This document shows positions 5,336 through 59,988 of a stretch of 64,000 nt of DNA, piece after piece; position 1 is the first letter of the stretch, and the number at the start of each line of letters is the position of its first letter. Origin of the DNA: Heterobilharzia americana (taxonomy: Eukaryota; Platyhelminthes; Trematoda; Strigeidida; Schistosomatidae); assembly GCA_944470555.2 (NCBI GenBank), contig OX104134.1:15603248-15667247 (forward strand), in the 5' to 3' direction. The notes under the pieces are model-generated. The model searched no databases. It was not told where the DNA came from and saw only the letters and a list, made by a program, of their open reading frames with translations. Position numbers and translations under genes: made by a program.

Positions 5336-5372
5336 GAGAGGAAGATGGTGAAGTAGAAGATGAACCAGTACA

Positions 5373-11098: not shown

Positions 11099-11122
11099 GA
11101 GAGAGAGAGAGAGAGAGAGAGG
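11099..11122 (+). repeat. (GA)n dinucleotide run
   Basis: Simple GA repeat within the 5' part of LINE A, near the start of the endonuclease region. Copy C lacks the expansion. Confidence 0.95.
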
Positions 11123-11364
11123 AGACCTATTGGTCAATTAGCTTTCCGAAGTCTTTCACCAACCGGCGTCATTTCGTCTTCCTGATTCCGGTGAGGAATG
11201 AGTTTAATTTTATTTTTTATAATTACTTTGTGCTTTGAAGTTTGTTTAGTGATTGGATTGTTTTTCCGGGTTGGGGTTGGTGGCCGTATGCCCAACCTTT
11301 CCCCTTTTTCCGGCCTATGACTGGCTGGTAAACTAGTGAACTTGTCAACTAGGCGAGGTTGTAT

Positions 11365-30067: not shown

Positions 30068-30175
30068 AATACTGTTCCATTTCCGTCTACACTCAAACAT
30101 TCCGGCATCTTGCATCATTCCTATCTGCCAAACAGTCTGCTTAAGCTACAGCAATATTATCATTTGTGTTCACAT

Positions 30176-33139: not shown

Positions 33140-33557
33140 GACTCACGATTATTGTGTAGTGTTTCCAATAAACCACATTTTGTCACCATACCGCACACTC
33201 ACTCATTCAAAAATATAGCCAGTTTAAATACTTTCTGTTGCAGTTCCTTCCTCACTGTTCTTCATATCTTGCACCCCCACTACATTACAGGCTCAACTTC
33301 TCAATCAATACTCATCGGTTGGAATCAAGACTCACAAAACTCACTGTTCAGTTCAACGCACCAACACTTCCCCTCCCATTACTGTTCGAATGCAATACCA
33401 CTGAATCACTCCAACAAATGTGAGAGCATAGCTGTCGAAATGACTGGCACGAATAGAACAATATATAAGAGATATCGACACATTCGAAATTCTACACGTC
33501 TAGTTCATTGCAAACAGACATGGTGGCCAACTGTACTCAAATCCAACTACACGTGTG
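33140..33557 (+). repeat. Repeat R1, copy 1
   Basis: About 418 bp present again as a near-identical inverted copy at 51,041-51,458. Both copies carry the same 136-codon open frame, apart from the last residue. The frame has no recognisable domain and is probably incidental. A diverged partial copy lies at 34,802-34,962. Similarity to copy 2 starts at GACTCACGATT and ends after CCAACTACAC. Confidence 0.95.
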
Positions 33558-35003: not shown

Positions 35004-35007
35004 AATG
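34802..35007 (+). repeat. Diverged R1-like segment plus 44-bp arm duplicate
   Basis: 34,802-34,960 aligns with 33,255-33,410 of R1 (shared ATCTTGCACCCCCA and TACTGTTCGAA blocks, roughly 80% identical by eye). Directly after it, 34,963-35,007 is a 44-bp copy, with one mismatch, of 36,059-36,103 inside the left arm (CAATGTAACAACACTTTCAG). The left outer end of the palindrome sits at the end of this block. Confidence 0.85.
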
Positions 35008-37617
35008 GGTAGACTATGAAATGTTTGTCACTTAGAGTCCATCTCATGAAATCGAAGTGGCATGACATGGTGAGTGTGCATTGATATCGAATCAGAAATC
35101 CGCATGAAGAAAACACCCAGTGGTCTCTTGTTTTACAAGATTTTGTAAACCATCCAGTCCAGTGATGGTCGGGAGACGTTCTATGTATAACTGCCTTTCA
35201 AGACCTAGGCTGAGTTTAAATTAGGTTAAGAAATGTAGCTGTGTATCTTAGAAATAAGGCTTAATACACATCCTTACAATTGGTAGGATGTCGAATTTGT
35301 AAACTGTGAGAACTGAATGCGTAACTACTACATCTCATAATGGTAATCATACCTTTCGATACCTCGGGAAGTTCCGCATTACATCAGTGAACTGAAATTG
35401 CAGGATAGACTTAATAAAGCAAGTTTCTTGTCGAATATTTAATGGCATCATTTCACTCCCTCACCATCTCTCGACAACTGGACATCAGTGATGCAGAGTG
35501 AATCCTGAGATGGAAAACTAATGGTTGATGTTATCTCTTGTGAACACTTGGGTGAACAATAGGATCTGGAACCATTAAATTAGCATTTGTCCTTCTTAAT
35601 AGTGTTGGCAAATACTTCTAATGATTTCAAAAATCATGAGAATTAGAATGCAGGCATTTCACACACCACATTACTCGTCAAGCATCGATGTTGTGGTGCA
35701 AAATCCTCAATCAGCTACATTTCTGAACTGACTACTGCATATATTACTGTCAAATAACCAACATATGCTTTGTGAATAAACGGGTATAACAGCCCTTCAT
35801 AATGACACACAGGTAAACGCCAAACCTTGCATGAATCAGAATTCATCGAATTTGGCCCCGTTCGTTCCAAATTGTAAAACGTGAGTGAAAATATCTCAAA
35901 CATTACTATTCAACGATTGCTCGGTTGACAGAGATTATGAATGACCTAAAAAAAAATTATATTTGCTTTAGACTTCGAATCATAGGTGAAATGTGATCAT
36001 GGTAAATAGCGACAACAACCAGGTATCAGCATCTGCTCTAAACAAGATTAAAACAATCCAGTGAGAACTAACCAATGTAACAACACTTTCAGCATAAATA
36101 ATGTAAATATTAATATGGCACAGTAGGTACTCGACACATTCCACAATGCACCAGGATCCATAACAGATTAAATTGCGAAAACGAAATCCGAAACGGTGTG
36201 GTCCCACAAGAACACCATAAGGCAGTGACTAAACACTGAAGCCCATGCAATGTGTCCCAAGTCACAACTGTCATCCATGATTCCAATAAATGGTAGATTT
36301 CTCTCAATTGGAAACCACCTCTGTGTTTGATCAGTCATTTATTTAGTATAACTGCAACTGCCTGACTAACACTACAACCAGAGCAGTTCACATTACATCA
36401 TCAGATGAGATCATGGAAAACTATACTGAAATCGCTGAAGCTGAGAGGATATAATATTCAACTTGACTATCACCGTCTGATCACGGAAACCAGTGGTGAA
36501 GCAGGCAGTTGTGAATAAAAGCAAATTAACTCTCAACAGTAAGTCGGTCATTGCTTTCGAGGTTACCACTGTTTGCAATAGGTTGTCTGACTCAGTTTTC
36601 CCCCTCGTTCAACGTCAGCTTACCTCATTCACCAGCACATGAGTTTCAGTGACAGCTCCATAATCATTTATTCCTTGGCTTACTTCACTTCGAATGACAG
36701 ACATTACATTGGTCGTCTCTACCACATTTCATGCTGATACCTTTCAATGGATTTCACTTACGACTTAAATATTCGCTCACTCTGTTTCAGTTCGGGAGGT
36801 GGTAAATGTGTATCACTAACAGACACATACTTCTTGCTGTCGTCTGCCAATCAGAGTAAACACCTACCGTGTCAGTTGACTCCCTCTGTAAGTAAACTGT
36901 GTCAGCTGTTAGTTACCATTCTCCACAAATGTGCAATTCAACGTAGGAATGACTGTAGTAGGTAACAGAAGGAGGACAGAATGAATGATTACAAATAGAG
37001 CTGTGATACAGTAATGGCGAAATTCATTGCACTCAGTGAGTAGGGTGCAGATATACAGTTCGACAGAATGATCTTCTTAATTTAGCTTGAATCGTCCTCG
37101 GGCGTCGATTATTCCGTCTTCACTTATTACGGCTTAACAACCAAACAGTACGGCATGGGAAAAGCAAAAAGCAGTTTTCCCTAACTTTTTCAGTTCGATA
37201 CAGTGTACTCTTAGCTCCTCAAATAATCTAGTAGTGAGGATTGATTAAATCGATATCACTTGTGAGTCTGCAGTTAGTGATTGAAGTTATGTGAATTAAA
37301 ATGTTTCTTGATATCACATTGTTTACTCATTAGGTGGGACAAAGAGGAAAAATTTATCGGCAGTAATTCATCGACTTTATTATTTACGGTCTGTTAGGTG
37401 GGTGGTTTCTGTTTCTGTAGATATGTTTAGCCGTAACTTCAGCCTTGCTTTAGCGCACCACGCCATATCAAACTTTACTGTACAGTGGATGACACGTGTA
37501 AATATCAAACGATGAGAAATCAGAAGGCGAAGACAAACAGTACAAAATGAAGGAACACGTGGTAGAGTAAGAGAGGAAACAATCAAATAACGTCCCTCCC
37601 TGCACTCCCCCCCCACT

Positions 37618-37655
37618 CTCTTTCTTTCTCTCTCTCTCTCTCACACACACACACA
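37618..37655 (+). repeat. CT/CA microsatellite (left arm)
   Basis: TTTC and TCTC units followed by about seven CA units, mirrored at 57,337-57,374. Confidence 0.9.
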
Positions 37656-37906
37656 TACTTACCTATACCACTCAATGCCTACGTAACAATCAAACAAAAC
37701 AGCTTTCCACCTTGAGTATGACAAATAACTTCTTATAGGTCATTCAAGCTCAATCACAATCGATTGTTTATCCTATCCCCTCCCACCTTCTCCATCATAG
37801 TTTCCATGTCCGATTTATTGAGATAAGGAAAGAGAAAATTCAGTTTGAGGTCATCCACTCAGACACAATAGACGGTAACGCTAATGTGATATTGTGTGTA
37901 TGTGCC

Positions 37907-37910
<4 letters not shown>

Positions 37911-37941
<31 letters not shown>
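37911..37941 (+). repeat. (GA)n microsatellite (left arm)
   Basis: About 15 GA units, mirrored with the same length at 57,051-57,081. Confidence 0.95.
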
Positions 37942-37947
<6 letters not shown>

Positions 37948-38257
37948 CTCTGATATTTATGCAATGTGAGTAAATTTTAATCTCTGATACTATTTACTTA
38001 GAAAAAAGATGGTGCTAGGCCATCATCCAGTCAATCAGTTAGTCAGTTAGTCAGTTAATCGCTAGAACAAAAGAATTGGAGAACAACACCGTCTTGCATT
38101 GACTTACATGTTTGTGTATTTCTATGTGGGTGTAGATACATGATTGTGAGTGCGTGTACCAGTGTACGTGGGGCAGTGTGCGTGACTGTGCCATCACCAA
38201 CACAGGAACATGTGACCGACTGAAATCAAAAGTAATGACTTACTTAGTACAACTGTT

Positions 38258-38306
38258 TTTAAATGTGCATCCGGCATTCCACTGCTAGCCATTATCCATC
38301 ATTACA
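38258..38306 (+). mobile_element. Hammerhead SINE 3' fragment in left arm
   Basis: AATGTGCATCCGGCATTCCA followed by CTGCTAGCCATTATCCATCA matches the post-GAAA part of the SINE hammerhead. The 5' half of the ribozyme is missing. An identical mirrored copy lies at 56,686-56,734 in the right arm, so the insertion predates the duplication. Confidence 0.75.
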
Positions 38307-39616
38307 ATGACTTACTTAGATTCCCAAACTATGACTAAAATAAATAATACACGATTGCATCAATATGACGTAGAAAGGTATAAAGTCAGAATTCGTCAAT
38401 TAAAAATCGATCACCTATCTTGTGAAAATTGCACTGCCATGCACCAAATAATTTCCTGAAATACTAGAGAAGAAATTAATCGGTTTAAGGCTTGGCAGTT
38501 GAACAGTTTGAATGTTATGTCTCATGAGACGATTCCCCATTTCCAGATAAATTAGACTACCATCAATAGGCCTTCCTGAATGTCAGCAACATCGGAAGCA
38601 AACGAAACCAACCTGAAAGTAAGTAATGCATAGCAGGTCATCATGAAGAGGAAACAGCTGCAAGACTATCAAAAGTTTCACTGAGTGATATTGTCTGCTG
38701 TATCACCGCCCCGCTGTCTCTTCCTCTCTCCCCCTCTTCGTTTACGACACTGCTTCACATTTACCCCTTTTATCTTCATGTTTCTCGAGAAACACATTGC
38801 CTAATTTATGATTCCTGTCATATAATGACGTCTGTTGACCTATTGTTATGCAGCTACAGGAATCGTGCTTCCCTCCTCACACATTCGTCGAGTGAATCGC
38901 TGAGAATCCTTCCTCATCTACATGCAAAGCAGTCATTCCCTGGCATCGATTATCTACGCGTTTACCAGACAACTTTGCATTATTGCAAGCAGGCACTGAA
39001 TATCATGAAATCTCACTCGATCAGTCAGTCAATGAGCCAGTCAGATGGAATATTGTCAGCTCCATATAGTGATTAGAACTCTCTTGTCCTATAGGAGAGA
39101 TCGTTGTTGTGTTTTGACTCGACGCCTCATCTAAACATCAAGCGGTGAATCTGTTCGTTAATTCTCAAATACATTAACTCCACAAATTCGTCAATTGGAT
39201 ATGGAAAGCAATTCATGTTTGAGCTGTTCCGTAAACCCATCATTATTGTCCACTATGCGTAGCGTCTACACGTTCAAGAGGTCGATGACACTCACTCATA
39301 GCTTCGGAGAACCAAGCCACTCTTCTCCATCACATAGACATACTGTCTTTACACCTCACCTAGAGGGGTAGAAAAAGAATGATAGTCTGCCGACGAACAT
39401 CACGACCCATAATTTGGAGACTTAGCCACCAGCATGCCTTTATGTTCATCTCGTAAACGCATTACCACATGTGTCTTTCAATATGGATGGATATGTAGGC
39501 GATAAAATGTGATGTTGTTGTCTTCACAAGTCGACATTTTTCTTTCTCAAATCATAACACTATGCGGAAATCACCTTGACAATTCAACAAACATAATTCG
39601 TGCGAACTTCTGTGCA

Positions 39617-39638
39617 ACTTGTTACTTGTTACTTGTTA
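39617..39638 (+). repeat. Three 7-bp tandem units (left arm)
   Basis: CTTGTTA repeated about three times, mirrored at 55,354-55,375 with the same copy number. Confidence 0.85.
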
Positions 39639-40054
39639 CTACAGTGGAAACCGATTTCTCACACCCATTCGCCCTCAGTATTATCAATGTTATTGCTTGT
39701 TGCCGTTGTTCTAAATATCTCTCATCCACTCATTCCGCCTCTTCCTCTCACACCCACACACTTACATGTAAAATAATACTCACACATAATAATGCTCACT
39801 CATAATGCCCACACCCTCTCTATCCCGGTGACTAAACGCATGTGACTGGGATCTAGACTGAACTCAATTCACAGATGATCGCCGTTACACCCTTGATATC
39901 ATTCCACTGAAAGTGTTTCCCAGTCTTCTATATTCCACATCGACACTGGTTAAGGGGGAGGCAGTGATGTGAAGCACACTCGTGTCAACCATAAAACGAG
40001 AAGGAATGAGTGAGTGAAAAAGAATGAGACTAGTGAACACCAATCACTCAGTTG

Positions 40055-40165
40055 AAGGGAAGAGTAAACTCAGTTGTGGATTGCACGCTTCCTACGCTTC
40101 AATGCGCATCACGCGCATCCAGACAACATAAAGTGTCTCATTATCATCCCCCAGCATTTCAGCGG
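40055..40165 (+). repeat. Segment resembling the bHLH gene's 5' region
   Basis: GGGAAGAGTAAACTCAGT at about 40,058, then TGGATTGCA and ATAAAGTGTCTC, line up in order and orientation with 29,918-30,010 just upstream of the bHLH gene. The last part (AAGTGTCT...CCCAGCATTTCAGC) is itself repeated at 40,320-40,365. No bHLH coding sequence follows. A mirrored copy lies in the right arm (54,827-54,937). Confidence 0.6.
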
Positions 40166-41036
40166 ATTTACACTTCCCATTTGGAAGGCGTATCTCCCTC
40201 CAAATTCTTTTTCGTCATCATTATCATTCACCCTACTTCCTGCATGTCATGCATTCATGTGAGACTGACTAGGTTAATGTTGAAATGGAATCGTCTGAGG
40301 GATTGTGAGTGCTCCAGCCAAAGTGTCTTATGATTATCTATCTGCCCAGCATTTCAGCACATTGACAATATCTATTTAGGCATTTCAAACAGGGTATGGC
40401 TTGAGAGATGAAATATTTCTCTCCAGTCAGTATGAAATAACTTGGGTGAAGGAAACCCTTACTTCACTGGTCGCGTAAGAATTGACATGAAAGATGAGCA
40501 ACTTCCGCAAGTAGCCATGTGTCAACACTGAGGAACTGTGTAAGAATAGACAGGCAGAAAAGTGAAGTGACAGGTAATATGAGCTGAACGGTGGGTGGAT
40601 AGGGTCATCTGTAGACACATTTTGTTAAGACACACCTGTAATCACTTAATCGTGTAGAAATCCTGGTGACTCACTTCATATTAGATCCTGGATTCATGCC
40701 TCCTATGAAGACACTAAGAACTCAGTCATCAAACCCGTCAGCTAAGATGAATCAACAACATCATCATTACTTATTCCAGTGTGAGTTGTTTACTGGAGTA
40801 TGAATGAATGACACCTACTCAAATCACACTGATAACTGTATGTAGGATTTATGGCCTCGAGCATTATTGAACCTAACCATAATTCAATTCCATACATCCA
40901 ACCATACTACCAACGAACATGACAAGTTGGAAAGCACACACGCTGATCAGTGGAATTCGCAAGCCAAATCAGAGTGACCCACACACCTAGTTTCATCTTT
41001 TCATCACGTTACACCAACCAATTACCTACATGAACG

Positions 41037-41141
41037 TTCAATGCAATGCAATGCAGTGCAGTGCAGTGCAGTGCAGTGCAGTGCAGTGCAGTGCAGTGCA
41101 GTGCAGTGCAGTGCAGTGCAGTGCAGTGCAGTGCAGTGCAG
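41037..41141 (+). repeat. (GTGCA)n pentamer array, left arm
   Basis: About 20 pentamers (first ATGCA, then GTGCA). It is the only sizeable difference between the palindrome arms: the right-arm array (53,891-53,955) is 40 bp, or eight units, shorter. Confidence 0.97.
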
Positions 41142-43395
41142 TTAGTCAATATTCCATACGATATGCGTATCTGTATCCTATGTGACACACACACTTCCAA
41201 TTGAAATGAGGGATTAGGTTGTATTCCGTTTACGAAGAGAGGTCACCAGCTAATAATCCTTCTCATATGTGGTGATACTATTTTGACAGGAAGGATGTTT
41301 AGTGTTAACCCTCGGTCTGTAGAGGTGAGGGTTGTATGAAATTCGATGTCAAAAATATTTTGTGCATCCATGAGATCAGGTTACTGTGGGTCACATGAAA
41401 AGCTTCGTTCCACAACACATGTGTAGCCTGAGGATCTAATTACATCCTGTAAATCACATTAATTAGCTGATAACTGACTTTATCTTTTCTCCATGAAGTA
41501 AGTGTCAATCAGCGAAGTTGGGAGGTTATCGCTGGCTGTCAAGTTATGGCAATACGGTGTTGCTTACCAACAGGTTATGTCAAAAATTAATCTCACACAT
41601 ATCTTCGTAGATGAGAGATGATGGCTCCGCTCGATATTCCATTTTGAAGCATCCATCAGGATAGAAGTTGATTACAGTGGTCCATAGTGTGATATCCTAG
41701 TCTGCACTGTTCTCCATCATCTGCTTATATCAAAGCAATAAAACTTGCCATGGTTACTACAACTACCTCATACCGACTCTGTGCTGTTTGCTGCTATTCA
41801 ACATTCATTCATGTAGCGAGCGTCCTGTCAAATGGATGTACCCACTAATCAGTGTATTTTGTCCACAGTGAAACTTAAACCTGGTATCCATCACAGCGTC
41901 TTCCACTGAGTTATTCATTCAGCACATTCACCTATTATACAATATTGTCAATTACCATCGTCAACCGAATAACTACAATGTCAAGGCATTTTCATTAGTA
42001 GCTCATATAAATATATCGCATATAAAATGATATACAAATAAATCATCAACACTGGATTTGATCAGGCACATTCAACGTATAACTTATTCAACCATGGTTA
42101 TAGTCTACAAAATGGAATGAACACGTTCGCCTCATTCAAACATGAAAACGATGTGAAGATAGAGATGTTATTAGCTAAGACAATTTCCATATGTTTCTGT
42201 TTGTGCCTACTATGCTATCCACCGTATATTACGGGAAAGGATTGAAGCATTGTAGGTATGTGGTGCAAATAGTCGTTTCAATGCTCAAATACTTCTCAGT
42301 CGCAATTGGATTTACAGATTTCCTAGATTTTGAAAATAATAACAAACATACAGCTTGAAAATCCAATATCAACGAGTGGAAACTATTTTTAAACATCATT
42401 ATTCGCTTTCAATTTATTGGTCAAAGTGAACATTTTTGTTACATTCAATATGTGAGATAATTCATCGTGTATAGTGAAGTGAACATCAATAACCTCGCCT
42501 GGTTGAGTAGTTCACTAGTCACTAACCGGTCATAAGCCCGAATAAAGAGGGAAGGTTAGGCGTAGGGCTACCAACCCTACTCCATAAAACCAACCCAATT
42601 GCTGAAAGCACAAAGAAAATGTAAACAATTAAGACAAACTGATTTCTCACTGGAATCGGGGAGACTAATTGACGCGGTTGTTGAAAGCCTTCGGGAAGCC
42701 AGCCGGCCGATGTTTTTTCGCTTCTCTCGATGGAAGCGAAAGTAAACATGGGGACATGGAATGTCCACACTATGTATGAACCTACCAAGGCTGCCCATAT
42801 TCCAAAAGACATGAGGAGGTATTACATAGAAGTGCTTGGAATCTGCAAAGGTGGATGGAATGAAAGTGGACTGTCTCAATTGTCAACTGGAGAGTCAATA
42901 ATCTACTCCGATATTGTCACCGACACGACGATCACAAGCTCACTGAGTTTTCGAGTGGCCATCATGATGTCCCCTTGAAGAGCATCGAAGACTCTCTCTC
43001 TCTCTCGCATGCAGTGGCAACCAATCTCCTCCTCAACGATCAACATCATGACAGCAAGATGGATTCAAATCGAAAGGAAGGAAAGTCACAATCATGCAGT
43101 GTTACGACACACTACGCTATGCACCTTCAAATAATGCAGATGAAGAGGGGAAGAAGGAGGAATTCTACAGATAGCTGTAGTCAGTACTGGACAACAACCC
43201 ACCTCACCCCAACCACATGGCCACACCGAGACTCATTCTAATGGGTGGGTGGGATAACATGAATACCAGCCAAACTGGGAGCAGACAACACAGGAAGAGA
43301 ACCAACCATGCGTCGACAGGCACTCGGTGAAATGATCAGTGAGAATGGAGAAGTGACTGTTTGCAGACTTATGTGCATTCAACGATTTGGTGATC

Positions 43396-43426
43396 GGAGG
43401 CGAGGCGAGGCGAGGCGAGGCGAGGC
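43396..43426 (+). repeat. (GGCGA)n pentamer array in LINE C
   Basis: About five to six GGCGA units just after the LVIGG endonuclease block. LINE A has a shorter version (10,408-10,426). This is a second pentanucleotide growing inside the LINE coding region. Confidence 0.9.
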
Positions 43427-44045
43427 AGTGTGTACAAACACTAGGATATTCACAAGGCAGTGAGCGACATGCAGTTGATTTCACCAGACACCAGGACACA
43501 CTACACTGGAAATCAGATCGACTTGATGTGAATGTGAAGAGAGTGGAGATGGAGGGAGACTCAGCCAGTCTACTGGAGACAAGATGAGATGGAGAACGAG
43601 GTGGGTTGGAGGTGGAGATGGAGGTGGGGTGTGGGTGATCAGATGTAGGTTGACACCACTCACTCACCACTCACTATCTAGTGCACGGAACCTGCTTCCA
43701 AAATCAAGTTGAAGGTCTTCAATTCGAGCAAGTTGGTGATAGACGACCACAGTTGAAGCTGAACAACTAGCCAGAACAGAAAATAAACTGATGGACGAAA
43801 CTACAGATGACATCTTCACTTCAGTCAACCATCAGGAAAAGATGTTGGAGACATTGAGCAACATCCGTGAAGGATGGGGAGTGGAAGAACACTTGAACCG
43901 TTTGAAAGTTATGTGGAAGGAAACTTGCATAACCGTGTTAGTAAGGAAGAATAAGGTGGGAGACAAGGAATGGATCTCGATGGACACATGGAAGCTGATA
44001 GAGCAGAGATAGGAAGATGGTGAAGCAGAAGATGAACCAGTACAT

Positions 44046-44064
44046 TGCTGTGCAGTGCAGTGCA
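44046..44064 (+). repeat. Short GTGCA pentamer run in LINE C
   Basis: Three to four pentamers at the site that holds much longer arrays in LINE B (5,373-5,438) and LINE A (9,741-9,775). The following about 130 bp present in A and B are missing here. Confidence 0.85.
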
Positions 44065-45729
44065 GAACAAGCTGCAGGCTGCAGGCTGCGTGCTGCAGGT
44101 AAGACAGACAGAGGTCTGACAACATTATATCAAATAACCAGGTTACTCACAATCTGGGAGGAGAGAGATCAACACAGATGAAACCAATGATGGGAGATAG
44201 GGAAGGAAACGTGGTTACCAAATAGAGAGGAGAAACAAAGGAAACGATGTGGTGATCACTTCAGAGAACTCTTGAATCGACCACTATCTGCAACTCTTTC
44301 GGAAATATCACCAGTAACGGCAGAACTACAAATGAACACAGGCCCCCTGACAAAAGTAGAAGCCCTGAATGCCGTAAAGTTGCTGAAAGCCAGGAAAGCG
44401 GCAGGACCAGATGGAATTCCTCCAGAAGCACTAAAAACAGACTCAGAGACATCAGCAGGCGTGCTCACACCACTAATGCAGAAGGTTTGGAAGGAAGACA
44501 GGAATAGTACCTGCTGAGTGATTAGAAGAAGGGCTACCTTGTCAAACTCCCAAAGAAGGGAGGCCCAAGTGTTTGCAAGAACTAACGCGAAATCATGCTG
44601 CTGTCCACCTCAAGCAAAACATTAAGCCACATCATCCTGGAGAGAGTGGAAAATGCTCTAGATTCAAAACTGCGACAGGAATATGCAGGCTGGCTGGCTT
44701 TAGGAAGAACAAATCATGTGCGGACCAAATTGCAACGCTACCATGCGCTACGCATCATCATAAAACACAGCATAGAATAGCAGTCAACTAGATACTTACC
44801 TCAACTTCATCGATTTGAAAAGACCTTCGACAGCGTCGACCGAGAAGTAATTTGACAGGCAGTTGCTTCAACTCTACGGTTTTAGTACCACAAACTACTA
44901 TAAACCTCATTCATCAGATATATGAAGACATCACATGCCAAGTGATCCACAGTGGAAATCTCAGTGATGCCTTTGAAGTGAAGATGGGAGTAAGAGAAGA
45001 CAAGGTCACCACTCACTGTCACTGATGATCTTCCTGATTGTGGTCAACTCGACTAGACTGGACTGGATCATGCAGCAGACAACTATGCGGAGCGGAAAGA
45101 TGAGCACAGTCTGGTTAGACCAATGTAAAGACCCTAGAAGAAGATTTGGATTCCGCCACCCGTGCTGATTTAGGTCTAATGTCTTGTGCACAAACCCGAA
45201 GATCTGCAGGCGAAAGCTGACAAGTTGACAGAAGAGGCAGCGAAGAGGGGACTTCAAGTGAATGTTGAGAAGACAGAGGTGGTAAAGATACCCAACCAAC
45301 AACAACAGCAACAATAAGAAGTAGCAATCACCATGAACGGGAGAAATGTAAAGGAAGTCACTCCCATCTACCTTCCCAGGCAGCATCGTTTCAACTACAG
45401 GCGGCACAGGCACAGATGACGATGTCAAAGCCAGGATCAGAGAGACAGCAAGACAGGCCTTCATTAACCTGAAATCTGTGTGGAGATCTACTGCACTACA
45501 CTCAGCTCAAAGAACAAGATGCGGATGTTCAACAGCAATGTCACTTCAGTGCTTCTATATGGTTCGGAAACTTGGCGTGTCACGAAAAGTATTTCCAACA
45601 AACTACAGACATACATGAACAGCTGCCACCTACACTCACTCGATGCCGAAGATGAGATGGCCAGAATAATCAGAATAAGCAACAAGAAACTCTGACTGGT
45701 GACGAACCAATCAAGAACCTATCACCCAA

Positions 45730-47350: not shown

Positions 47351-47389
47351 CTTATACAATGATTCAACCCGTTGTAGTTTACTGAAGCA

Positions 47390-50300
47390 GTTGCAATTAA
47401 AAGATCCAAACCTGATTTATGTATTTAGAAAGATACTGTTGTGAATCTTTGTTCTCCCTGCTTTATTTAAATCCGTGAAACGGAAGAATTGTAAGCAGTT
47501 CAGTAGATGCAGCTTTACTGATGAACTATACTCCGCATTAATATTGTTATGTGCAATCGTGCACCTATACGAGTCACAACGTTATACGAGTATATTTTTG
47601 TTTCTCCACTACGGTAAGTTTCTTATGTGACCTTATCAAAAGAATGCGCCCAGTCTGAAGTTTGTCATAGGCACTGATCAAAGCATCCGTCCCAACGTTT
47701 TTCTCCGTGTATTACATCAAGCGCCAGTTGACATAGAGTTAAACATCATTCACTTGAAAAATGAACACCGATTAACAAGCAAATGCAAGAGAATACAGTG
47801 TAAGATAAAATTTCAGTTGCATTGTTGCACTTAAATGTTCATGAGGAAGACTGTCACATTTTCATTTAAAGGATGACCTGATACAATCAGATAATCCACA
47901 AAAACACTGAATCATAAAGTGTATGGACCCCAAAGAGCATATGGTTCAGTAAAAGGACATAACCAATGCATAATAAGTAAAATGTACTGCTATGAGTAAA
48001 CTAAAACAGAAATAAATTCTTTTCCACCACGGTACTCAACAGCTCAGTCGTGTTGAAGTTAATGGTTATTTTATTTATAGTATATGCCATCTCTAGTTTT
48101 AAAAGAGGTGTTAGTAATCACAGATGAAATCAAAATTAAATATCTAGGTAATTTTTTCATCTATAGAAGGATACTTCCAATATGCTGCACGAATATAACT
48201 CGTGTCAAATACCTATTTTTTACTCGGTGCCTAATATGTGGAACTATTCAGTCAAATCTTGACATAAACCTAATATATTTCATATTCGCACTCCACTAAC
48301 ACTAAGTTGTTCATTTGGGTTTGAAACGGATAAAATCCTAAATTTATGAAGGAAATCAAGTGCGATGACCATTTTTGATGATTATATCAACAAATATATG
48401 TTAGAAGTAGTATTTATCATGGACTGACATCAGTTGGGGAACCATTGAAAATCTGGGAGCACTGGACAACTGTTTCGTCCATGATGAATACTACTTCTAA
48501 ATTGAAAAATCCCCATTCATCTCAAAATAAATATATGTTATTTAATTGCATGTCCTAGGCTAAATATATCTAATAGGACCACTTTACTAAGATGTGGAAT
48601 CTGAATATTATATCCTAATGTTGTGTAGTTGTCAAACTTTCAAATGAGTCCAAACCAGAATTCAATTTCTTCTCATAGGTACGGCAATTCTGTTATCATA
48701 GTCCAAATAAAAAGAAGTTATTTCGCTTGTTGTGTTTTCTGCATCCTTCCTTTAGTGAGTCATGTTAAGCGCTTACAAGATATGAAGTATAAAAAAGACA
48801 CTTTTCAAATGATGGTCAGTTTTTCAAATCCTTTCGACTCGTCATCATAGCTATTTCCCACGTGCCTGAAGAGAAGTGGTAAAGAGAATTCTCAGTTGGT
48901 TGAAGATTTATTGAGAGCAACGTAGTAGTTTTTTGTCAGTATCTGTCAAACGAAAGTAAGTCAGACCAAAAATTTATGCAGTTACAGTTCAACCGTATCT
49001 TCGAAGAACTCTGTCATAATAATGGACCATATAAAATGATTGGTGAATTAGATTAACGTTGGCCATCTAAATACCATGGGAATATGTAAAATCGTGGTTG
49101 GCTGACAAGTTTCCTTACTGTTAAAGAAGGTTAACAGAGTTATCGTGATCTTGGTTTATCAGATAAATTTCCCCAAAACAATTATTCCAATTTTTCACCC
49201 TGTTACACTGTGGTTGTCGACTTCCGATCCGAAAATTGAGCAAGATGTCAAAATGGTAAGAGAATGCACCATAAATAGATCACTCAAAGCGTATACGAAG
49301 CAAATGAAAGATCAGTTTCTCATAATTTCACTTGAAATTACATCAAATGAAGTTGTTCAAATTATAGCTAAAAGTTTGTTTCAGGGAGTGTAAAAAGAAA
49401 AGCTAAGTAGTTCATCGTGAGATATTTCTGCTTTTAAAATCTGTGCGTTACTAACAAATGAATATTAAACAAGAAAGATACAGGAATTCAGCTATGTGCT
49501 TACGAATCAAAAACATTTTTGCTCTTACCCACTATAGGATTTTGTATGATTTTTCACGAAAATATTTCAAGAGTCACTCAAGCTTCACACATATCTAGTT
49601 TATTCAGCATGGGCTTCGTGTACAACCAGTCCTAAATAGAATAAAACGCACTTTCAGACTCCCCTACTGGCCACCACCAGGTAAATAGTACAAACGCAAG
49701 GTGTTAATTCATTTATTGTTCTTCGTGTTAGTATATGTCTCAAGTGGAAGATAGGCAAAAAAATAACTCTTTGTAACCTAAATGCAGAAGCAACTTTTTC
49801 AAAGTATTTTAAGTTTGAACTAAATCCTTTCTAATTGCCGTCAGACTGTTAACTAAAGTAGGTTTTTATGTTCACAAATATGCCCTGCTTTTCAAAACAA
49901 TACTTCAACACATCACAAAAAGAACTTCAAGACAATTCAGAAGAAGCAAAAATGAGTAACTTTTGCCAAATTTATTGTGGTCTAGGTGCTTGAGACACAT
50001 AAATTCATCAAATACTTAAATATTTCTAACATGAAACCATGGAAATTTGGAAACTTCCGGTCAGTAATAATCAGCGCATTTATCACGAGACGCCTAATAC
50101 TGACGAAGTTTAAGTGCCATCATCGAAGTTAAAGGCCAAAACATGATGTTACTTTACATTACATTCATCCGTATATTTTTTCTTCTAAACAGACATATTT
50201 TATTCTTATATTATGCTCACTGATAAACGTCTACTTTGTAAGTAGTCACTACTTACAAGAATGTACCCTACTTCATTTGATACATCCTGTTTTGACATGC

Positions 50301-50445
50301 AGTTTAACTCTCTCTTTGACTATTGATGCAAGCTTATTTGGTATACGAAATACAAGTCAGCAGATGACATCAAGTTTATGGTTTAGGATAGTCAAAGTAA
50401 GATCATTTCGATGTTGTTACTTGTATACCCGTCGTATGGGAAGTG
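47390..50445. other. AT-rich stretch, mostly nothing recognised
   Basis: Apart from the 96-bp TIR-flanked element at 48.4 kb, no gene or repeat can be named. Frames at 48,084, 48,629 and 49,145 (71-82 codons) have no motif. Confidence 0.5.
48403..48498 (-). mobile_element. 96-bp element with 21-bp terminal inverted repeats
   Basis: AGAAGTAGTATTTATCATGGA at 48,403-48,423 is mirrored with one mismatch at 48,478-48,498. The middle matches, in inverted orientation, the second half of the SINE at 22,330-22,395 (GACAACTGTTTCGT; TGACATCA). It may be a MITE-like form or a hairpin made from a SINE piece. Confidence 0.6.
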
Positions 50446-50454
50446 GATATCGTG

Positions 50455-50632
50455 ACTCTGTATAGTAGTGAAAAACGCTCTAGTGCATGGAGCGATTGGT
50501 CCCAGATTCGAGTCTTAGTGGGAACAGCATCATTCACTGTGATGCAGGCATATCCATCTGACGAGTCCAAAATTAGACGAAGCGCGCATTCTGGATTCCA
50601 GTGCTAGCCACTATCGACCATTAACATAATAT
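50455..50632 (+). mobile_element. Hammerhead SINE with degenerate ribozyme
   Basis: A worn tRNA-like head (TCGTGACTCTGTATAGTAGT; B-box-like GATTCGAGTCTTAG) leads to a hammerhead at 50,543-50,612. Its core is CTGACGAG (50,558-50,565), but the second block is GAAG (50,579-50,582) instead of GAAA, and stem II keeps three pairs. The cleavage triplet reads ATT, which is allowed. Stem I pairs ATCCA with TGGAT. The A-to-G change in the core predicts loss of most activity. Confidence 0.8.
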
Positions 50633-50634
50633 CA

Positions 50635-51040
50635 TTTCTGTTCCATAGTAAGAGCAAAATGAATTATGCCGATAATAAACGCCTCTTAGTTGGCCGACCA
50701 TGTCAACTTGAAACCAAAATGCTGGACAAATATCATCCACCGAAATCGTTTACCAAGGAATAAGTGTTTTAACAACTGGCAGATAAATGTTTAAGGATTT
50801 TCATGAGAGAATAAAATACTTATAATCCCAGTTCAAAACTAAAATCTTATCCATATGACCTCATGTTATCTTAAACACAAGTTATAGCACATATTGCAAT
50901 ATTGATAATGTATTTCTTGAAGAATAATTACAAAATTTAAGTATAAAATAGAAATAATAGAAGAAAAACATGAATAAGTGTTTCAAGCAAGAATAATATT
51001 CATATCTAGTGGTAGCATAGACATAGCGTCTTAAATCATA
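50635..51040. other. AT-rich spacer
   Basis: Nothing recognised. Confidence 0.5.
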
Positions 51041-51458
51041 TACATGTGTAGTTGGATTTGAGTACAGTTGGCCACCATGTCTGTTTGCAATGAACTAGAC
51101 GTGTAGAATTTCGAATGTGTCGATATCTCTTATATATTGTTCTATTCGTGCCAGTCATTTCGACAGCTATGCTCTCACATTTGTTGGAGTGATTCAGTGG
51201 TATTGCATTCGAACAGTAATGGGAGGGGAAGTGTTGGTGCGTTGAACTGAACAGTGAGTTTTGTGAGTCTTGATTCCAACCGATGAGTATTGATTGAGAA
51301 GTTGAGCCTGTAATGTAGTGGGGGTGCAAGATATGAAGAACAGTGAGGAAGGAACTGCAACAGAAAGTATTTAAACTGGCTATATTTTTGAATGAGTGAG
51401 TGTGCGGTATGGTGACAAAATGTGGTTTATTGGAAACACTACACAATAATCGTGAGTC
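51041..51458 (-). repeat. Repeat R1, copy 2 (inverted)
   Basis: Near-identical inverted copy of 33,140-33,557 (paired positions sum to 84,598, a different axis from the giant palindrome). It lies inside the palindrome spacer, 1.08 kb from the right arm. Confidence 0.95.
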
Positions 51459-51459
51459 C

Positions 51460-52541
51460 TAATAACACATTTCATCAGCAATATGACGACGTTATCAATA
51501 GTTACAAATGTTATCACAAACTGGATTTACTGGTACCGTGAGTTGTTACCAAGTTAATGGTAAAGCTTTCACCAAAAAGTGTAATACATACTTTTTCTAG
51601 GTCATATTTTGTACCCAGAAAAGAATTTAGATTTTTTCAGAAGAAATTCCATTAGTCGAACCTTCGCTGTTCTTTGATCCAATCGGATGACTTATTTTTT
51701 AGGAGAAAAATGTTTTATAAATCATGACACTTAAAATCGAAATAAAAGTTATAGCATGATGTAGTCAATGAATGTGAACGAAAGGTAGTAATTCTTTATA
51801 CATACAATCTTGTTTGCATTGATACTCTTGGAAGGAATGTGATGGATTCGACTTTCAAATAACTAACTCATTCCAGTTGGACTACGAAATCCCACCCAGT
51901 ACATGAACGTCTAATTACGAAATTATATGTAGGTAGGCAGCTTGAGATTGTATTGATGCACTATAATTATGTGACACGCCTGAAACGAGTAAACACGTTT
52001 GGTATGCATACAACAACCAGCTGCCTGATTAGATCGTCAGTCCATGTAAACACTTTGTCGACATCAATAATTATTTCCACCCACCTATGTTACTTCAATT
52101 TATGGTCTTGACTTTGCTATTGAAATTCCTCAGATTACTTAGATGATTTCATAAGCAGAGCTGTGTATATTTGGAGTTGAAAAAATCCCGTTAGACTTCG
52201 AGCAGGTAGCTTTCAGAAGCCACAATGGTAGGATGAAGAGACTTTCGAATTGAGTTGTGTGTACGTGAACCTAGTAAGCGCTTCCAGGGTAACGCTTCCA
52301 GTGTGTAACGATAATGACGCCTTTGTATTGCATCTGTAATGGGATTATGAGTTCGCATTGTTGTGGTGTTGTGGGGTCCCGAACTGCTAATCAACAGGTA
52401 TCTGATGTTCCCTGATTTCCACTCATTATTCAAATAATGTTGATTCACACTGAAAACTCACTTGAAATCAGGTAGTATTTGCAAACCATCGACTTTCCAG
52501 TGTAACCAGTTATTAGAAACTGAGCATACACACATACACAC
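51460..52541. other. Spacer next to the right arm
   Basis: No gene recognised. An 85-codon minus frame at 52,191-52,448 has no motif. I found no matching sequence next to the left arm's inner edge, which is occupied by LINE C. Confidence 0.5.
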
Positions 52542-53890
52542 ATTGATGTTCACTTCACTATACACGATGAATTATCTCACATATTGAATGTAACAAAAAT
52601 GTTCACTTTGACCAATAAATTGAAAGCGAATAATGATGTTTAAAAATAGTTTCCACTCGTTGATATTGGATTTTCAAGCTGTATGTTTGTTATTATTTTC
52701 AAAATCTAGGAAATCTGTAAATCCAATTGCGACTGAGAAGTATTTGAGCATTGAAACGACTATTTGCACCACATACCTACAATGCTTCAATCCTTTCCCG
52801 TAATATACGGTGGATAGCATAGTAGGCACAAACAGAAACATATGGAAATTGTCTTAGCTAATAACATCTCTATCTTCACATCGTTTTCATGTTTGAATGA
52901 GGCGAACGTGTTCATTCCATTTTGTAGACTATAACCATGGTTGAATAAGTTATACGTTGAATGTGCCTGATCAAATCCAGTGTTGATGATTTATTTGTAT
53001 ATCATTTTATATGCGATATATTTATATGAGCTACTAATGAAAATGCCTTGACATTGTAGTTATTCGGTTGACGATGGTAATTGACAATATTGTATAATAG
53101 GTGAATGTGCTGAATGAATAACTCAGTGGAAGACGCTGTGATGGATACCAGGTTTAAGTTTCACTGTGGACAAAATACACTGATTAGTGGGTACATCCAT
53201 TTGACAGGACGCTCGCTACATGAATGAATGTTGAATAGCAGCAAACAGCACAGAGTCGGTATGAGGTAGTTGTAGTAACCATGGCAAGTTTTATTGCTTT
53301 GATATAAGCAGATGATGGAGAACAGTGCAGACTAGGATATCACACTATGGACCACTGTAATCAACTTCTATCCTGATGGATGCTTCAAAATGGAATATCG
53401 AGCGGAGCCATCATCTCTCATCTACGAAGATATGTGTGAGATTAATTTTTGACATAACCTGTTGGTAAGCAACACCGTATTGCCATAACTTGACAGCCAG
53501 CGATAACCTCCCAACTTCGCTGATTGACACTTACTTCATGGAGAAAAGATAAAGTCAGTTATCAGCTAATTAATGTGATTTACAGGATGTAATTAGATCC
53601 TCAGGCTACACATGTGTTGTGGAACGAAGCTTTTCATGTGACCCACAGTAACCTGATCTCATGGATGCACAAAATATTTTTGACATCGAATTTCATACAA
53701 CCCTCACCTCTACAGACCGAGGGTTAACACTAAACATCCTTCCTGTCAAAATAGTATCACCACATATGAGAAGGATTATTAGCTGGTGACCTCTCTTCGT
53801 AAACGGAATACAACCTAATCCCTCATTTCAATTGGAAGTGTGTGTGTCACATAGGATACAGATACGCATATCGTATGGAATATTGACTAA

Positions 53891-53955
53891 CTGCACTGCA
53901 CTGCACTGCACTGCACTGCACTGCACTGCACTGCACTGCATTGCATTGCATTGAA
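53891..53955 (-). repeat. (TGCAC)n pentamer array, right arm
   Basis: About 12-13 pentamers, mirror of 41,037-41,141 and shorter by 40 bp. Confidence 0.97.
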
Positions 53956-56900
53956 CGTTCATGTAGGTAATTGGTTGGTGTAACGTGATGAAAAGATGAA
54001 ACTAGGTGTGTGGGTCACTCTGATTTGGCTTGCGAATTCCACTGATCAGCGTGTGTGCTTTCCAACTTGTCATGTTCGTTGGTAGTATGGTTGGATGTAT
54101 GGAATTGAATTATGGTTAGGTTCAATAATGCTCGAGGCCATAAATCCTACATACAGTTATCAGTGTGATTTGAGTAGGTGTCATTCATTCATACTCCAGT
54201 AAACAACTCACACTGGAATAAGTAATGATGATGTTGTTGATTCATCTTAGCTGACGGGTTTGATGACTGAGTTCTTAGTGTCTTCATAGGAGGCATGAAT
54301 CCAGGATCTAATATGAAGTGAGTCACCAGGATTTCTACACGATTAAGTGATTACAGGTGTGTCTTAACAAAATGTGTCTACAGATGACCCTATCCACCCA
54401 CCGTTCAGCTCATATTACCTGTCACTTCACTTTTCTGCCTGTCTATTCTTACACAGTTCCTCAGTGTTGACACATGGCTACTTGCGGAAGTTGCTCATCT
54501 TTCATGTCAATTCTTACGCGACCAGTGAAGTAAGGGTTTCCTTCACCCAAGTTATTTCATACTGACTGGAGAGAAATATTTCATCTCTCAAGCCATACCC
54601 TGTTTGAAATGCCTAAATAGATATTGTCAATGTGCTGAAATGCTGGGCAGATAGATAATCATAAGACACTTTGGCTGGAGCACTCACAATCCCTCAGACG
54701 ATTCCATTTCAACATTAACCTAGTCAGTCTCACATGAATGCATGACATGCAGGAAGTAGGGTGAATGATAATGATGACGAAAAAGAATTTGGAGGGAGAT
54801 ACGCCTTCCAAATGGGAAGTGTAAATCCGCTGAAATGCTGGGGGATGATAATGAGACACTTTATGTTGTCTGGATGCGCGTGATGCGCATTGAAGCGTAG
54901 GAAGCGTGCAATCCACAACTGAGTTTACTCTTCCCTTCAACTGAGTGATTGGTGTTCACTAGTCTCATTCTTTTTCACTCACTCATTCCTTCTCGTTTTA
55001 TGGTTGACACGAGTGTGCTTCACATCACTGCCTCCCCCTTAACCAGTGTCGATGTGGAATATAGAAGACTGGGAAACACTTTCAGTGGAATGATATCAAG
55101 GGTGTAACGGCGATCATCTGTGAATTGAGTTCAGTCTAGATCCCAGTCACATGCGTTTAGTCACCGGGATAGAGAGGGTGTGGGCATTATGAGTGAGCAT
55201 TATTATGTGTGAGTATTATTTTACATGTAAGTGTGTGGGTGTGAGAGGAAGAGGCGGAATGAGTGGATGAGAGATATTTAGAACAACGGCAACAAGCAAT
55301 AACATTGATAATACTGAGGGCGAATGGGTGTGAGAAATCGGTTTCCACTGTAGTAACAAGTAACAAGTAACAAGTTGCACAGAAGTTCGCACGAATTATG
55401 TTTGTTGAATTGTCAAGGTGATTTCCGCATAGTGTTATGATTTGAGAAAGAAAAATGTCGACTTGTGAAGACAACAACATCACATTTTATCGCCTACATA
55501 TCCATCCATATTGAAAGACACATGTGGTAATGCGTTTACGAGATGAACATAAAGGCATGCTGGTGGCTAAGTCTCCAAATTATGGGTCGTGATGTTCGTC
55601 GGCAGACTATCATTCTTTTTCTACCCCTCTAGGTGAGGTGTAAAGACAGTATGTCTATGTGATGGAGAAGAGTGGCTTGGTTCTCCGAAGCTATGAGTGA
55701 GTGTCATCGACCTCTTGAACGTGTAGACGCTACGCATAGTGGACAATAATGATGGGTTTACGGAACAGCTCAAACATGAATTGCTTTCCATATCCAATTG
55801 ACGAATTTGTGGAGTTAATGTATTTGAGAATTAACGAACAGATTCACCGCTTGATGTTTAGATGAGGCGTCGAGTCAAAACACAACAACGATCTCTCCTA
55901 TAGGACAAGAGAGTTCTAATCACTATATGGAGCTGACAATATTCCATCTGACTGGCTCATTGACTGACTGATCGAGTGAGATTTCATGATATTCAGTGCC
56001 TGCTTGCAATAATGCAAAGTTGTCTGGTAAACGCGTAGATAATCGATGCCAGGGAATGACTGCTTTGCATGTAGATGAGGAAGGATTCTCAGCGATTCAC
56101 TCGACGAATGTGTGAGGAGGGAAGCACGATTCCTGTAGCTGCATAACAATAGGTCAACAGACGTCATTATATGACAGGAATCATAAATTAGGCAATGTGT
56201 TTCTCGAGAAACATGAAGATAAAAGGGGTAAATGTGAAGCAGTGTCGTAAACGAAGAGGGGGAGAGAGGAAGAGACAGCGGGGCGGTGATACAGCAGACA
56301 ATATCACTCAGTGAAACTTTTGATAGTCTTGCAGCTGTTTCCTCTTCATGATGACCTGCTATGCATTACTTACTTTCAGGTTGGTTTCGTTTGCTTCCGA
56401 TGTTGCTGACATTCAGGAAGGCCTATTGATGGTAGTCTAATTTATCTGGAAATGGGGAATCGTCTCATGAGACATAACATTCAAACTGTTCAACTGCCAA
56501 GCCTTAAACCGATTAATTTCTTCTCTAGTATTTCAGGAAATTATTTGGTGCATGGCAGTGCAATTTTCACAAGATAGGTGATCGATTTTTAATTGACGAA
56601 TTCTGACTTTATACCTTTCTACGTCATATTGATGCAATCGTGTATTATTTATTTTAGTCATAGTTTGGGAATCTAAGTAAGTCATTGTAATGATGGATAA
56701 TGGCTAGCAGTGGAATGCCGGATGCACATTTAAAAACAGTTGTACTAAGTAAGTCATTACTTTTGATTTCAGTCGGTCACATGTTCCTGTGTTGGTGATG
56801 GCACAGTCACGCACACTGCCCCACGTACACTGGTACACGCACTCACAATCATGTATCTACACCCACATAGAAATACACAAACATGTAAGTCAATGCAAGA

Positions 56901-57044
56901 CGGTGTTGTTCTCCAATTCTTTTGTTCTAGCGATTAACTGACTAACTGACTAACTGATTGACTGGATGATGGCCTAGCACCATCTTTTTTCTAAGTAAAT
57001 AGTATCAGAGATTAAAATTTACTCACATTGCATAAATATCAGAG

Positions 57045-57050
<6 letters not shown>

Positions 57051-57081
<31 letters not shown>
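57051..57081 (-). repeat. (CT)n microsatellite, right arm
   Basis: Mirror of 37,911-37,941, same length. Confidence 0.95.
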
Positions 57082-57085
<4 letters not shown>

Positions 57086-59988
57086 GGCACATACACACAA
57101 TATCACATTAGCGTTACCGTCTATTGTGTCTGAGTGGATGACCTCAAACTGAATTTTCTCTTTCCTTATCTCAATAAATCGGACATGGAAACTATGATGG
57201 AGAAGGTGGGAGGGGATAGGATAAACAATCGATTGTGATTGAGCTTGAATGACCTATAAGAAGTTATTTGTCATACTCAAGGTGGAAAGCTGTTTTGTTT
57301 GATTGTTACGTAGGCATTGAGTGGTATAGGTAAGTATGTGTGTGTGTGTGAGAGAGAGAGAGAGAAAGAAAGAGAGTGGGGGGGGAGTGCAGGGAGGGAC
57401 GTTATTTGATTGTTTCCTCTCTTACTCTACCACGTGTTCCTTCATTTTTGTACTGTTTGTCTTCGCCTTCTGATTTCTCATCGTTTGATATTTACACGTG
57501 TCATCCACTGTACAGTAAAGTTTGATATGGCGTGGTGCGCTAAAGCAAGGCTGAAGTTACGGCTAAACATATCTACAGAAACAGAAACCACCCACCTAAC
57601 AGACCGTAAATAATAAAGTCGATGAATTACTGCCGATAAATTTTTCCTCTTTGTCCCACCTAATGAGTAAACAATGTGATATCAAGAAACATTTTAATTC
57701 ACATAACTTCAATCACTAACTGCAGACTCACAAGTGATATCGATTTAATCAATCCTCACTACTAGATTATTTGAGGAGCTAAGAGTACACTGTATCGAAC
57801 TGAAAAGTTAGGGAAAACTGCTTTTTGCTTTTCCCATGCCGTACTGTTTGGTTGTTAAGCCGTAATAAGTGAAGACGGAATAATCGACGCCCGAGGACGA
57901 TTCAAGCTAAATTAAGAAGATCATTCTGTCGAACTGTATATCTGCACCCTACTCACTGAGTGCAATGAATTTCGCCATTACTGTATCACAGCTCTATTTG
58001 TAATCATTCATTCTGTCCTCCTTCTGTTACCTACTACAGTCATTCCTACGTTGAATTGCACATTTGTGGAGAATGGTAACTAACAGCTGACACAGTTTAC
58101 TTACAGAGGGAGTCAACTGACACGGTAGGTGTTTACTCTGATTGGCAGACGACAGCAAGAAGTATGTGTCTGTTAGTGATACACATTTACCACCTCCCGA
58201 ACTGAAACAGAGTGAGCGAATATTTAAGTCGTAAGTGAAATCCATTGAAAGGTATCAGCATGAAATGTGGTAGAGACGACCAATGTAATGTCTGTCATTC
58301 GAAGTGAAGTAAGCCAAGGAATAAATGATTATGGAGCTGTCACTGAAACTCATGTGCTGGTGAATGAGGTAAGCTGACGTTGAACGAGGGGGAAAACTGA
58401 GTCAGACAACCTATTGCAAACAGTGGTAACCTCGAAAGCAATGACCGACTTACTGTTGAGAGTTAATTTGCTTTTATTCACAACTGCCTGCTTCACCACT
58501 GGTTTCCGTGATCAGACGGTGATAGTCAAGTTGAATATTATATCCTCTCAGCTTCAGCGATTTCAGTATAGTTTTCCATGATCTCATCTGATGATGTAAT
58601 GTGAACTGCTCTGGTTGTAGTGTTAGTCAGGCAGTTGCAGTTATACTAAATAAATGACTGATCAAACACAGAGGTGGTTTCCAATTGAGAGAAATCTACC
58701 ATTTATTGGAATCATGGATGACAGTTGTGACTTGGGACACATTGCATGGGCTTCAGTGTTTAGTCACTGCCTTATGGTGTTCTTGTGGGACCACACCGTT
58801 TCGGATTTCGTTTTCGCAATTTAATCTGTTATGGATCCTGGTGCATTGTGGAATGTGTCGAGTACCTACTGTGCCATATTAATATTTACATTATTTATGC
58901 TGAAAGTGTTGTTACATTGGTTAGTTCTCACTGGATTGTTTTAATCTTGTTTAGAGCAGATGCTGATACCTGGTTGTTGTCGCTATTTACCATGATCACA
59001 TTTCACCTATGATTCGAAGTCTAAAGCAAATATAATTTTTTTTTAGGTCATTCATAATCTCTGTCAACCGAGCAATCGTTGAATAGTAATGTTTGAGATA
59101 TTTTCACTCACGTTTTACAATTTGGAACGAACGGGGCCAAATTCGATGAATTCTGATTCATGCAAGGTTTGGCGTTTACCTGTGTGTCATTATGAAGGGC
59201 TGTTATACCCGTTTATTCACAAAGCATATGTTGGTTATTTGACAGTAATATATGCAGTAGTCAGTTCAGAAATGTAGCTGATTGAGGATTTTGCACCACA
59301 ACATCGATGCTTGACGAGTAATGTGGTGTGTGAAATGCCTGCATTCTAATTCTCATGATTTTTGAAATCATTAGAAGTATTTGCCAACACTATTAAGAAG
59401 GACAAATGCTAATTTAATGGTTCCAGATCCTATTGTTCACCCAAGTGTTCACAAGAGATAACATCAACCATTAGTTTTCCATCTCAGGATTCACTCTGCA
59501 TCACTGATGTCCAGTTGTCGAGAGATGGTGAGGGAGTGAAATGATGCCATTAAATATTCGACAAGAAACTTGCTTTATTAAGTCTATCCTGCAATTTCAG
59601 TTCACTGATGTAATGCGGAACTTCCCGAGGTATCGAAAGGTATGATTACCATTATGAGATGTAGTAGTTACGCATTCAGTTCTCACAGTTTACAAATTCG
59701 ACATCCTACCAATTGTAAGGATGTGTATTAAGCCTTATTTCTAAGATACACAGCTACATTTCTTAACCTAATTTAAACTCAGCCTAGGTCTTGAAAGGCA
59801 GTTATACATAGAACGTCTCCCGACCATCACTGGACTGGATGGTTTACAAAATCTTGTAAAACAAGAGACCACTGGGTGTTTTCTTCATGCGGATTTCTGA
59901 TTCGATATCAATGCACACTCACCATGTCATGCCACTTCGATTTCATGAGATGGACTCTAAGTGACAAACATTTCATAGTCTACCCATT

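Follow-up and report, generated by a model that had tools for sequence, protein, structure and literature searches.

A substitution-free 7.4-kb palindrome on the very probable Z chromosome of Heterobilharzia americana and its possible maintenance by gene conversion

Long inverted repeats with nearly identical arms have been described in several genomic settings, and the best known of them are the palindromes of sex chromosomes. Those of the primate X (PMC8981503) and Y and of willow (PMC7023750) are reported as large, kept alike by gene conversion between the arms, and marked by inverted arms without substitutions, a spacer made of repeat debris, a location on a sex chromosome and a raised G+C content of the arms, which on the human X reaches 46.3% against 41.2% (PMC8981503). 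Inverted copies also arise as human fold-back inverted duplications, where the spacer keeps its normal copy number, has a median of 3.4 kb and stays under 15 kb in 20 of the 21 cases reported, and where the junctions from spacer to inverted copy carry 2-8 bp of inverted microhomology (PMC3907307). At Drosophila inversion breakpoints, inverted duplicates of 59 and about 540 bp are reported to flank a segment, with several short copied pieces close by, and are explained by staggered breaks or by microhomology-mediated break-induced replication (PMC7584159). Finally, ectopic gene conversion among human long terminal repeats (LTRs) is described as leaving a patchwork of high-identity tracts in diverged copies, with donors on sex chromosomes and autosomes (PMC4921805). 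In this study we analyse a stretch of 64,000 nucleotides, hereafter the window, from the trematode Heterobilharzia americana (assembly GCA_944470555.2, contig OX104134.1, called C8 below; C8:15603248-15667247), which contains a palindrome whose 7.4-kb arms show no substitution at all. We give about an even chance to the view that it is a real inverted segmental duplication next to a basic helix-loop-helix (bHLH) gene, the arms of which are kept identical by gene conversion.

The left arm occupies positions 35004-42490 of the window on the forward strand (7487 bp) and the right arm positions 52542-59988 on the reverse strand (7447 bp), with a spacer of 10,051 bp between them (42491-52541), and this pair is the single dominant inverted match when the window is compared with itself. 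An earlier note on this DNA had given these arm boundaries together with the reverse-complement relation, had counted two 1-bp homopolymer changes, one 40-bp pentamer change and no substitution in the stretches compared, and had called for a base-by-base alignment of the arms. That alignment has now been run and finds the boundaries exact and the count valid over the full arms: there are 7446 identical columns, no substitution and three insertions or deletions, namely a single T at 37186 and a single A at 57449, both in homopolymers, and 40 bp (eight pentamer units) at 41052-41091 in a TGCAG array. The GA microsatellite is indeed of the same length in both arms, with 15.5 units in each. A match of this kind is far beyond chance. 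For the open frames, which the earlier note gave as 62-98 codons and identical between the arms, one small correction is due: the longest stop-free frame has 149 codons, is likewise identical in both and lacks a Pfam match. When the arm frames were scanned against Pfam no credible domain was found; a match to a plectrovirus family (E 4.7e-4) lay under its cut-off and was rejected as coding content. Because no stop-free frame exceeds 149 codons, no credible domain is present in the frames scanned, and the alignment to a diverged relic described below is broken by large insertions and deletions, the sequence suggests that the arms are non-coding DNA.

All genome searches were made in this one assembly, which has 664,890,237 bases in 337 contigs. 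A query of 1001 arm bases (3 of 3 candidates scored) gave both arms and, at the left junction, a piece of 45 bp, and nothing else. A query with the left arm in full (40 of 525 candidates scored) listed 55 matches, comprising both arms, the same 45-bp piece, one 42-bp match, a diverged relic in two pieces on the unplaced contig C74, and many short pieces of one dispersed repeat. Since no third near-identical copy was found among the candidates scored, the arms are to all appearance a segmental duplication and not copies of a mobile element. The relic aligns to 37657-38791 with 62% identity counting gaps and 76% over 939 ungapped columns, and a search with the relic itself as query (15 of 15 candidates scored) gave only the relic and the arms over that stretch. 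Contig C74, which is 77 kb long, carries in addition a repeat copy that is 91% identical to a local cluster in and around the window, and for these two reasons may be a W-linked or alternative copy of the palindrome region. The short dispersed repeat in the left arm, at 38261-38323 (around arm positions 3258-3320), has like its right-arm partner many genomic matches that often stand as inverted pairs a few hundred bases apart, like a small hairpin element.

Regarding the chromosomal setting, about which the earlier note had raised the question of Z or W, C8 is very probably the Z chromosome. A search for the U2AF large subunit gave three matches that pass the curated cut-off, all of them on C8 between 22.126 and 22.142 Mb; nothing elsewhere in the assembly passes it, and no W copy was seen. 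In both of the schistosome species compared, u2af2 is reported among three genes that are W-linked and have a Z homologue (PMC8662593), and C8 is read as Z because the matches are all on it and because u2af2 is thus an ancestral Z/W gene. The window lies about 6.5 Mb from the u2af2 matches, which stand in tandem (C8:22126125-22142131), 7.3 and 7.5 kb apart, one with an open frame and two with one internal stop each. Contigs C1-C8 measure 162.6, 79.5, 86.8, 85.6, 37.1, 46.1, 36.1 and 116.7 Mb, and we take their order and proportions to resemble schistosome chromosomes 1-7 followed by Z.

The locus resembles the described sex-chromosome palindromes in its substitution-free inverted arms, its spacer of repeat debris and its very probable place on a sex chromosome. 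Its base composition, which has the direction reported for primate X palindromes, may be a further likeness: arm G+C is 39.8% versus a mean of 34.4% in 54 flanking blocks, from which the stretches nearest the arms were excluded (Mann-Whitney P 2.5e-7). The locus differs from those palindromes in the small size of its arms, in the lack of any gene found there and in its location on Z, which can recombine in ZZ males; moreover, conversion is proposed here from one species.

The one argument that the arms may be more alike than the age of the duplication allows comes from the inner end of the left arm. The first bases of the spacer, AACCTCGCC at 42491, are the natural 5' terminus of a retroelement-like repeat family that is dispersed in the genome, so that the copy R2 of this family (42491-45735, forward strand) begins exactly where the arm ends. 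Eight of 11 aligned copies besides the window's own start at the same base and the other three 1, 2 and 3 bases later, and their upstream sequences look unrelated, except in a duplicated pair at C8:6.48/6.50 Mb. A genome search with 42391-43400 (40 of 11,103 candidates scored) agrees with this, as 33 of the 40 other matches start within 42488-42495, the remainder starting at 42481 (one), 42508-42513 (four) and 42563-42564 (two). The best other match among those scored is only 79% identical, a neighbouring copy R1, outside the scored candidates, reaches 81% over 42491-43351, and the first 450 nt of R2 are 73-81% identical to two neighbouring copies. Judged by its sequence, R2 is an old copy at the arm junction. 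Conversion that proceeds as far as an old insertion would be expected to leave an old copy exactly on the arm end, whereas any other history makes this position a coincidence; the abutment would thus suit conversion acting on an already old palindrome more than it suits a new duplication.

R2 ends about 280 nt before the 3' end of the family, which fits a later deletion, and is followed by a second retroelement fragment at 45750-47228 (start approximate, forward strand). As a sign of a target-site duplication we looked for exact repeats of at least 9 bases of the 5' flank of R2 within 45600-52541, and none was present. From its motifs we take R2 to be of RTE type, the Pfam scans being negative both in the R2 frames scanned and in five frames of the repeat copy at 6.498 Mb; the second fragment is presumably Penelope-like, again from motifs, its Pfam support being a weak reverse-transcriptase match at 46290-46631 below the cut-off. 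An attempt to date R2 from its broken frames was given up, as none of seven repeat copies, a near-identical pair on C4 included, has a stop-free frame longer than 179 codons. For the rest of the spacer, beyond these two fragments, the matches scored include no other near-identical copy, excepting one exon copy (A', below) and two dispersed repeats; this search scored 40 of 6,089 candidates and is incomplete for diverged copies, an exon copy of 82% identity (B, below) being absent from its list.

At the left outer junction, a 45-bp copy of arm-internal sequence 36059-36103 lies at 34963-35007 on the forward strand, is identical at 44 of 45 positions and ends 4 bp into the arm; it is possibly a templated insertion. 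Inverted duplicates that flank a segment, with several short copied pieces near one another, recall the Drosophila breakpoints, where the reported duplicates are much shorter than the arms here. As in human fold-back duplications, the inverted copies are separated by a spacer of a size within the reported range. Unlike in those, the inverted microhomology between the two inner spacer ends is 0 bp, the arms are far smaller and the position is interstitial.

A second indication of homogenisation comes from the neighbouring bHLH gene. Its first exon lies at 30110-30910 on the forward strand and encodes an HLH domain (E 6.1e-13); the protein of 30110-30907 matches a Heterobilharzia americana protein with a reported identity of 100% and a query coverage of 92%; by eye there is one differing residue, H against R. 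The exon has a donor-like site at 30900, which would be spliced in frame to an acceptor lying before 33291, and segment A (33140-33552, forward strand) probably holds a downstream exon of the gene, its frame matching the C-terminus of the Schistosoma bovis homologue at 27 of 83 residues (E 2e-13). The S. bovis protein matches only the first exon, A and a copy A' in the assembly (7 of 7 candidates scored). A' (51046-51458, reverse strand) lies inverted in the spacer, 1.08 kb from the right arm, and is identical to A over all 413 bp, about 150 of which we infer to be intronic, and a third, partial copy B stands at 34807-34949 on the forward strand with about 82% identity to A. Beyond the identical core, 19 of 28 and 12 of 17 bases still agree in register at the two edges, and within 60 bp the upstream edge scored above all of 100 shuffles, the downstream edge being reached by 42 of 100. 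We read A and A' as an older inverted pair with an overwritten core.

The copies of the R2 family near the palindrome show a similar patchwork. R1 (7534-11360, reverse strand) and R2 share a tract of 1158 nt at 98.7% identity, which falls to 86% and 78% in the adjoining 300 nt on its two sides; the tract pairs 10722-9398 with 43056-44282, and its p of 0.001 is the smallest value possible with 1000 permutations. The central part of R2 (42941-44285) is 95-100% identical to a neighbouring copy, the flanks in the comparison with R1 lying at 74-87%. A copy at 15.554 Mb behaves alike, with 73-79% identity to R2 over the first 450 nt and 95-100% from there to about 43990, beyond which the two are not alignable. 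R3 (5335-6740, forward strand) has an inverted tract of 859 nt that is 99.8% identical to R1, its remainder aligning poorly; the R1/R3 tract and one between R1 and a further copy, R4, could be simply copied pieces, and because their remainders are poorly alignable we rest the claim of conversion-like tracts on R1/R2 and on R2 against the 15.554-Mb copy. The tract scan, which reports pairs with p below 0.01 only, gave 15 pairs among 11 copies, the others including R1/R9 (81 nt), R2/R3 (249 nt) and the C74 copy with R1 (668 nt) and R2 (703 nt). When the assembly was searched with 43091-44284 (40 of 9,952 candidates scored), the closest long relatives, at 88-92%, were in C8:15.55-15.72 Mb and on C74, followed by copies of 78-79% at 15.34-15.35 Mb, other long matches of 69-74%, three matches with 80% over about 400 bases, and pieces that are shorter and vary in identity. 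The pattern is like that reported for human LTRs (PMC4921805), with the difference that the partners here are neighbours within about 100 kb in both orientations.

Taken together, these observations can be arranged into a sequence of events. The original inverted duplication would have arisen by break repair with template switching, an origin made probable by the copied 45-bp piece at the left outer junction. A retroelement copy, R2, would long ago have inserted into the inner part of the left arm, and once its 3' end and the sequence past it had been lost, the R2 insertion would have remained as the inner limit of homology. Since then, gene conversion from arm to arm would have erased substitutions in the remaining 7.4 kb, as one case of local exchange among nearby copies in either orientation. 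The duplication would then be older than its zero divergence suggests. Besides the R2 abutment, homogenisation may also be backed by the exon pair that looks overwritten, at 1 kb from the right arm, and by the conversion-like tracts nearby. Of the alternatives named in the earlier note, a recent duplication or conversion as in sex-chromosome palindromes, the second gains from the very probable Z location, the tracts and the R2 junction; the likeness to those palindromes fails with respect to genes in the arms, a feature that is common among the known cases though not obligatory.

Several observations weigh against conversion. Many known ampliconic palindromes carry genes, whereas none was found in these arms. 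No similarity adjoins the arm ends, inward or outward, the weak matches in the flank comparison being self-hairpins inside the spacer, a 32-bp match (E 0.56) and a 74-bp match of 69% (E 1.6e-4) far from the ends. The 45-bp junction copy has only one mismatch, which counts against a very old origin. The agreement at the edges of A and A' (P about 1e-4 for 19 of 28 and about 1e-3 for 12 of 17, from 200,000 random anchored pairs) comes from a post hoc test on 45 bp whose edges were first spotted by eye, and local alignment of the 300-bp and 1-kb flanks did not rise above shuffles. The exon pair and the arms are not in mirror order, therefore more than one event is needed. Remote pairs of repeat copies also reach p <=0.01, seven of the 15 pairs in the tract scan having one or two remote members and tracts of 21-136 nt, so that only the length of the local tracts is distinctive. 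As to base composition, the sequence adjoining the arms has in part an intermediate G+C content (38.5% at 59989-60790 and 36.7% at 51500-52541), and in comparison with the C74 relic the arm G+C is not significantly in excess (P 0.2 for 96 against 78 changes).

The absence of substitutions means that either the duplication is very young or the arms have been homogenised, and a very recent event is a serious rival, which we regard as possible but somewhat unlikely. Template switching or break repair would have placed an inverted copy of the 7.4-kb segment at a nearby site within roughly the last 25,000 generations, without any need for conversion. The account is simple, and it explains directly the sharp arm ends, which have no diverged homology beyond them, and the piece from inside the arm at the left outer junction; by our own arithmetic, zero substitutions in 7446 bp bound the divergence at about 4e-4 (95%), that is about 25,000 generations, using the S. 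mansoni mutation rate of 8.1e-9, itself reported from a regression on genome size (PMC4754680). That such duplications arise is shown by another inverted repeat on C8 (6474321-6478691 versus 6497845-6502211), with arms of 4.37 kb, a spacer of 19.2 kb and 12 substitutions, 11 of them transitions; it was found through two equal-scoring repeat matches and hence is not a random sample. However, this account requires that the end of a fresh segment and the 5' end of the old copy R2 coincide to the base by chance, the 45-bp piece carries a mismatch where the arms carry none, and A and A' look overwritten rather than newly inserted.

Assembly error, which the earlier note had named as the main alternative, with one real arm placed twice or two haplotypes of different local structure merged into one path, would account for the lack of substitutions, and the differences that do exist between the arms, two homopolymer indels and one change of array length, are the commonest consensus errors or allele differences. 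We nevertheless consider it improbable. The flanks of the arms differ on both sides, so that four distinct junctions must exist in the reads; misjoined reads create neither an exon copy of the same locus in the spacer nor a 45-bp copy at one junction only; no leftover third arm copy was found among the candidates scored in the 337 contigs; and the other C8 inverted repeat has ordinary divergence, 11 of its 12 substitutions being transitions. Near-identity and sharp ends would also suit a pair of young 7.4-kb transposable-element copies, or a single element whose terminal inverted repeats are giant. This is very improbable given that both arm searches of the 665 Mb lacked a third near-identical copy among the candidates scored and that the frames scanned hold no credible coding domain.

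A query at C8:6.477 Mb (40 of 13,549 candidates scored) found, apart from the query's own, five copies of 99-100% identity, of which one is partial; all of them fall between C8:6.444 and 6.530 Mb, and the remaining matches reach 78-82%. Including the query, six copies in both orientations thus lie within 86 kb (C8:6444048-6530579), and by our own count 34 of the 40 rows have a further row no more than 200 kb away. Measurements of near-identity between neighbours cover three places, C8:15.6, C8:6.48 and C4:67.52 Mb; the inverted C4 pair, with about 99% identity, is most simply explained as two copies of the repeat. Clusters of matches were also seen on C1, C4 and C7, where clustering alone was seen. 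Local concerted evolution may be widespread in this genome, and we hold it possible, as a tentative generalisation, that the palindrome is one case of a genome-wide, orientation-blind process in which nearby exons, retroelement pieces and unique 7-kb segments overwrite each other within about 100 kb. If this is true, a dispersed repeat family would turn into local near-identical clusters set apart by about 20% divergence, and changes in the orientation of the spacer, and of the second bHLH exon within it, would be expected among individuals of the population.

Among the other repeats in the window, three dispersed ones each carry a type I hammerhead ribozyme that exceeds the Rfam gathering score, at 28631-28675 (forward), 29108-29152 (reverse) and 50552-50596 (forward), the first two sitting in inverted repeat copies that are about 78% alike. 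A solo-LTR-like repeat of about 423 bp at 60797-61219 is 88-91% identical to 39 listed copies, among which six pairs stand about 5.2 kb apart.

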